From Eubacterium sp. (GTDB lineage: Bacteria > Bacillota > Clostridia > Lachnospirales > Lachnospiraceae), in NCBI GenBank assembly GCA_021442545.1, contig JABUSX010000259.1, positions 1 through 8,972 on the forward strand: a stretch of DNA of 8,972 nt, given 5' to 3'. Positions 7,875-8,306 of the stretch are shown in pieces; position 1 is the stretch's first letter, and each line of letters opens with the position of its first letter. Below the pieces are notes generated by a model. That model did no database searches and was not told the DNA's origin. It was given only the letters and a program-made list of their open reading frames with translations. The position numbers were made by a program, and so were the translations under genes.

Positions 7875-8306
7875 ATGGAACTGAATTCCAATCAGATCGC
7901 GGAGCTGCTGCCGCATCGCTATCCTTTTGCGCTGGTAGACCGCATTACGGATTATGAACCCGGAAAATAGGCAAAAGGAAGAAAATGCGTCAGCGTCGGA
8001 GAACCGGTCTTCTGCGGACACTTTCCGCAGCAGCATGTGCTCCCGGGGGTTCTGATCATAGAAGCGCTGGCGCAGGTCGGCGCGGTGGCGATTCTTTCCA
8101 TGGAAGAGAACAAGGGCAAGATCGTGCTTTTCGGCGGAATCAAAAATGCACGTTTCAAAAGGCAGGTCATTCCCGGAGACGTACTGGAAATGGAATGCGT
8201 ACTGACAAAAATGCGCGGCTCCGTCGGAATCGGAACCTGCAGAGCCGAGGTAAACGGCGAAACAGCCTGTACGGCCGAACTGATTTTTGCCGTTGCACAG
8301 AAGTAA
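7875..8306 (+). pseudogene. fabZ: 3-hydroxyacyl-ACP dehydratase FabZ, interrupted by an in-frame TAG at codon 32
   Basis: FabZ removes water from 3-hydroxyacyl-ACP, a required step of each elongation cycle. Reading from ATG 7875 (GGAGG nine to ten bases upstream) gives MELNSNQIAELLPHRYPFAL, then VDRITDYEPGK, then TAG at 7968-7970; the same frame continues as AKGRKCVSVGEPVFCGHFPQ and on to PGVLIIEALAQVG, ending at TAA 8304-8306. Counting the TAG as one residue, the total is 143 residues (normal for FabZ) and the catalytic His and Glu fall at 49 and 63, the numbers used for Pseudomonas FabZ. So nothing is inserted or deleted: one codon has become amber, most simply from Tyr (TAT/TAC), Lys or Gln. 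The rest shows no decay. A restart at GTG 8037 would lose His49 and be inactive. It may be a recent null mutation, a sequencing error, or a readthrough gene; the sequence cannot decide. Confidence 0.9.
7968..7970 (+). other. In-frame amber codon inside fabZ
   Basis: TAG sits in an A-rich context (GGA AAA TAG GCA AAA GGA). The residue it replaces is variable in the family, often aromatic, and lies between the LPHRYPF helix region and the VSVGEPVF strand. fabH in the same operon ends in TAG at its proper C-terminus, so TAG is a working stop in this genome. Confidence 0.9.

Follow-up and report, generated by a model that had tools for sequence, protein, structure and literature searches.

The window, by which we mean the whole stretch of DNA analysed here (8,972 nucleotides), is the entire contig C37, one of 480 contigs in a 1.96-Mb draft assembly. 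It carries a FAS II operon on the plus strand, beginning with a partial accC (1–819) whose 5' end is cut by the contig end and whose family match lies below the cut-offs. Downstream follow accD (1026–1835), accA (1832–2650), fabH (2647–3594, terminated by TAG), fabK (3695–4636; 428 bits, slightly below the 453-bit cut-off), fabD (4815–5747), fabG (5744–6490) and an intact fabF (6632–7873), all of which were assigned from an open reading frame together with a family match. Next in line is fabZ (7875–8306), and the last gene (8489–8965, plus strand) encodes a MarR-type regulator with a weak match to FabT (40 bits, far under the 200-bit cut-off). All FAS neighbours of fabZ and the MarR-type gene have open frames, accC being truncated by the contig end.

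The fabZ frame runs from an ATG at 7875 to a TAA at 8304–8306, and a GGGAGG motif (7860–7865), read from the sequence as its likely ribosome-binding site, ends 9 bases 5' of the ATG. What sets this gene apart from an intact fabZ is a single in-frame TAG at 7968–7970, codon 32, which is the only internal stop and deprives the gene of one uninterrupted reading frame. Translated with an X at this codon, the protein matches the NCBIfam models NF000582 (176.7 bits, cut-off 113) and TIGR01750 (165 bits, cut-off 155.15) over their full length, exceeding both curated cut-offs despite the TAG. His49 and Glu63, which we take to be the catalytic residues, align with those of FabZ chains of solved structures. 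The preliminary description of this DNA, made from the sequence alone, had reported a lone TAG at codon 32 in a frame open on both sides and of family-like length, with His49 and Glu63 in family positions, and the translation, family scores and alignment bear this out.

Translation ending at the TAG yields a 31-residue piece of FabZ (7875–7967). The only in-frame ATG, GTG or TTG soon 3' of the TAG is the GTG at 8037 (codon 55), likely the only restart in fabZ, which opens an 89-residue frame (8037–8306). This start lies beyond His49, as the preliminary description had also recognised, so neither the terminated nor the restarted product should be an active enzyme, given the role we assume for His49. 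The frame downstream of the TAG is conserved, and codon 32 aligns without a gap in all 23 aligned FabZ relatives. This argues against a ribosomal hop over the TAG, a mechanism that had been raised earlier and already doubted on the grounds of family spacing. At the 80 columns invariant among these 23 relatives, the window's FabZ departs from 3, level with the most divergent of the other rows (0 to 3), and no second lesion was found in the fabZ frame. The gene thus shows no clear decay, neither the relaxed constraint nor the further damage expected of a pseudogene.

All 131 aligned relative rows, which in some cases are several loci of one genome, have a sense codon opposite codon 32. TGG occupies the position in 35 of these rows, including the 6 nearest (L050–L055, 80% to 86% identical); the seventh-nearest, L065, has Phe, and the same-genus rows have TAC, TAT, TTC or TTT. 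Two protein searches listed 176 other FabZ proteins, 169 of which cover residue 32, and here Trp occurs in 141, with S, F, K, Y, R, G, T, M or N in the rest. The position is therefore usually Trp in close relatives yet tolerant of other side chains. Matches to the FabZ family model occurred in 44 of 61 genomes (counting that of the window), and among the matches listed only the window's gene has an internal stop. Stops flagged in the FabZ alignments of L017 and L020 sit at the very end only, and a TGA flagged in fabF of G009 and G012 falls at the C-terminal end of that gene. The protein searches with FabZ and FabF each listed the best 120 of 8,000 candidates scored, and among the matches listed for full-length FabZ (X at the stop), its 89-residue tail and FabF there was no sister strain in which codon 32 could be compared, a check that the preliminary description had proposed. 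The best FabZ match listed is 86% identical with the full-length query and 84% with the tail. FabF among the matches listed comes from the window's contig alone, the next protein being 81% identical.

For a wider view of internal stops, 61 of the bin's 480 contigs, or 635 kb out of 1.96 Mb, were compared with 1.055 Mb from a genome of the same genus, G008. The core set comprised 152 alignments of at least 45% identity, or 31,718 codons, and contained 2 stops, the fabZ TAG and a TAA in L189. The L189 alignment begins well upstream of the conserved domain, and the TAA, judged by eye, apparently falls in the tail of an adjacent gene read out of frame; as it is likely out of frame, it was left out of the count, leaving the fabZ TAG as the only stop judged genuine in the core codons. 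None of the 190 core columns with Trp in G008 holds a stop, and 146 of them have Trp in the bin as well. In all, 25 alignments between the bin and G008 contained a stop, and fabZ alone was kept: the stops in L197 and L189 were examined in full, the former being a true gene end and the latter likely out of frame, and the remaining ones, judged by eye from printed stretches, lie ahead of the gene start, beyond its end or in shadow frames. The preliminary description had held that many decayed genes elsewhere, together with a second intact fabZ, would point to an ordinary pseudogene; no other stop in the core set was judged genuine.

A possible frameshift was flagged in three split alignments. 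Two of them, at accD/accA in the window and in L189, look ordinary, reflecting gene boundaries or out-of-frame flanks. The third lies in L180 (1218–3357), where ispH and rpsA, names assigned by eye, share one frame in G008 and occupy 2 overlapping frames in the bin, a difference that may reflect either a natural split or a frameshift. Coding-potential scans for more interrupted genes returned mostly out-of-frame or intergenic noise and were not used, both because of this noise and because fabZ itself was missed by both filters.

The origin of contig C37 is unsure. Its fabD, fabG, fabF, fabZ and marR are 67% to 86% identical to those of the Oscillospiraceae-type loci L050–L056 that reach these genes, versus 47% to 64% to G008. 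FabK is 76% identical in L056, unrelated (24% to 28%) in L051–L054 and 68% identical in G008. No matches to fabH or the acc genes occurred in L050–L056, whose flanks are short, and this comparison accordingly covers fabD to marR and, in part, fabK. FabF is 72% to 80% identical in 8 genomes reached through the Oscillospiraceae-type loci, with a ninth, G061, contributing only a 74-residue piece, and 57% to 60% identical in the best matches from 8 genomes of the same genus or family. A FabZ tree of 108 rows and 142 columns, in which many forks are unresolved, groups the window with 6 Oscillospiraceae-type rows (99/96) and places 7 same-genus rows in another clade (99/97). The stretch from fabD to marR (4815–8965) is thus Oscillospiraceae-like, while the bin's genus has its own distinct copies in the same gene order. 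GatB, encoded on another contig, shows the opposite pattern, being 77% identical to G008, 66% to same-family G019 and 59% to G067, in a comparison where the other 14 of the 17 genomes lacked a match to this protein. Base composition lends no support to contamination: the window correlates with the bin at 0.764, above 34 of 60 contigs, and falls in the one main cluster. This fit is weak evidence since binning itself may select for composition. Taken from sequence similarity, either the operon may have been acquired laterally or the contig may have been mis-binned. In L050 (454–1074), what resembles the beginning of accB continues in frame into the final 74 residues of fabF, directly before fabZ, and this fusion has the appearance of a deletion or of a junction made in assembly; the locus starts with an adaptor-like stretch, and both the accB and the adaptor are presumed identities. 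L079, from a record titled Bacteroides, has a FabZ placed among the Lachnospiraceae rows and is likely mislabelled or mis-binned.

How the TAG should be read depends in part on what this codon does elsewhere. If it were a sense codon, decoded by a suppressor tRNA, as pyrrolysine or through a changed code, the intact frame on both sides would be explained, and this frame is the sole positive support for an interpretation that we consider highly improbable. TAG ends 13 of 147 supported genes in the bin, a set that may include some shadow frames (TAA and TGA end 67 each; the ends were supported by the comparison with G008), and it also terminates fabH in the same operon. It thus remains an ordinary terminator, and the fabZ TAG is not accompanied by TAGs inside many conserved genes, with Trp columns free of stops and one internal stop judged genuine in the whole core set. 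The release factor RF1 gene is present in the bin, cut by a contig end. A search for PylS, which the preliminary description had suggested, gave no match in the bin, with 13 of 14 control genomes detected and 1 over the cut-off; as the bin is 94.8% complete, the absence is not certain. No tRNA with a CUA anticodon, likewise proposed as a check, was present among the tRNAs that ARAGORN could type (12 of its 14 hits), and since this set is incomplete, without even a Trp tRNA, it leaves some room for suppression. The recoding and pyrrolysine decoding that had been suggested earlier are therefore unsupported by these data. A less radical alternative is leaky read-through, in which an amino acid would be inserted at the TAG often enough to give some full-length FabZ, the stop throttling fatty-acid synthesis. 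The tolerance of residue 32 for many side chains and the conserved downstream frame would suit such a mechanism, as would an imperfect inverted repeat (24 nt, 75%) with one arm beginning directly after the TAG, and PMC7918605 makes the case that in-frame stops in bacterial genes often do not mark pseudogenes. Against it, the RNA folds around the TAG are no better than those of shuffled sequences (z = −0.69 for 7940–8060; z = −1.06 for 7895–8005, which spans both repeat arms, with 28 of 200 shuffles equally good), no relative row has a stop at codon 32, no other genome has an internal stop in FabZ among the matches listed, and no sister strain shows the stop kept. We regard read-through as unlikely. 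Its strongest form, in which the amber codon is real and kept and FabZ, encoded by the last FAS II enzyme gene, would be made solely by read-through at a side-chain-tolerant position as a throttle on membrane-lipid synthesis, appears more doubtful still.

Two simpler explanations carry most of the weight. The TAG may be real, a nonsense mutation of recent date through which the sampled population would have lost fabZ function, with outside fatty acids likely used via a fatty-acid kinase, and we consider this a serious possibility. FabZ and FabA/FabZ-family searches of the bin matched the window's gene alone, so that the second fabZ or fabA sought at the suggestion of the preliminary description was not found there; the bin likewise yielded one FabF. 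An intact FakA/YloV-type gene in the bin makes uptake of outside fatty acids plausible. FabZ matches are absent from 7 of 15 same-genus genomes (G004, G005, G007, G010, G013, G014 and G015), of which 5 are less than 90% complete and 2, G004 and G007, at least 90%; fatty-acid synthesis may thus be patchy in this genus. Together, the kinase gene and these genomes imply that a fabZ null need not be lethal. The preliminary description had held that a null would disable the operon unless another dehydratase exists; none was found in the bin, and the doubt over the contig's bin makes the missing second fabZ weak evidence about the organism. A fatty-acid auxotroph in early decay and a second fabZ elsewhere, two of the duller explanations offered at the outset, stand. 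On the other side, the open FAS genes on the contig and the lack of clear decay in fabZ would require any null to be very young, a single gene underlies the proposed uptake route, and the contig may be another organism's. Our tentative first choice is that fabZ is ordinary and intact but for this one nonsense change, most likely a false base in one fragmentary assembly. The living cell would then likely make a normal FabZ dehydratase, the TAG being a consensus error; we infer an erroneous base, not one carried by the cell. A single TAG in a frame otherwise open, no clear decay, no other stop judged genuine in the core codons, and a codon seen in one contig of a 480-contig draft, with the next FabF at 81% and the best listed FabZ at 86%, are all consistent with a false base, and sequencing or assembly error, also foreseen in the preliminary description, stands on the same single stop in one contig. 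A genuine young null allele would leave an identical picture. The assembly is also not generally error-ridden, as 1 of 25 stop-containing alignments was judged genuine, mostly by eye, and only L180 among the 3 split alignments is a possible frameshift. One event in the codons compared corresponds to about 3e-4 wrong bases per base, a rate that we place above the expectation for a good consensus and that would be conceivable for a thinly covered contig. Because this rate is high and no clear second error appeared in the genes compared, L180 being a possible exception, a true null of recent origin falls only a little short of an error in likelihood.

As a FabZ dehydratase (TIGR01750/NF000582), the window's protein resembles its family in its full-length match over the cut-offs, its His49 and Glu63 and its place beside fabF in a FAS II operon, and differs in the in-frame TAG at codon 32. 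Bacterial in-frame stop codons are treated as short-lived polymorphisms by Belinky et al. 2021 (PMC7918605). The fabZ TAG, one nonsense codon in an otherwise constrained-looking gene, fits that ordinary picture, although it is known from one sequence only. Stop-codon reassignment in bacteria has been screened for in PMC8629427, and the fabZ stop likewise sits in a well-aligned column; unlike the reassignments considered there, it is one codon in one gene, with TAG elsewhere a normal terminator. Among the papers listed by a literature search on fabZ and premature stop codons, none concerned a stop inside fabZ, judged by titles and abstract openings. We regard the fabZ TAG as a true observation with a probably ordinary explanation. 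A false base would serve as a warning that one unverified draft base can mimic fatty-acid auxotrophy or recoding; a real TAG would point to a population whose own fatty-acid synthesis was lost very recently. The TAG would bear on bacterial use of in-frame stops solely in the case of read-through.

The spacer between fabZ and marR measures 182 nt versus 45 to 108 nt in L050–L056; it is longer in some other loci, for instance 219 nt in G008. Within it, on the plus strand, lies a 59-nt copy of the fabZ 3' end (8350–8408), 80% identical to 8251–8309 and beginning 99 bases downstream of its source, which translates as INSEAVRTAELFFAIAQK* beside VNGETACTAELIFAVAQK*. Judging from its sequence, the copy resembles what an old tandem duplication would leave behind.
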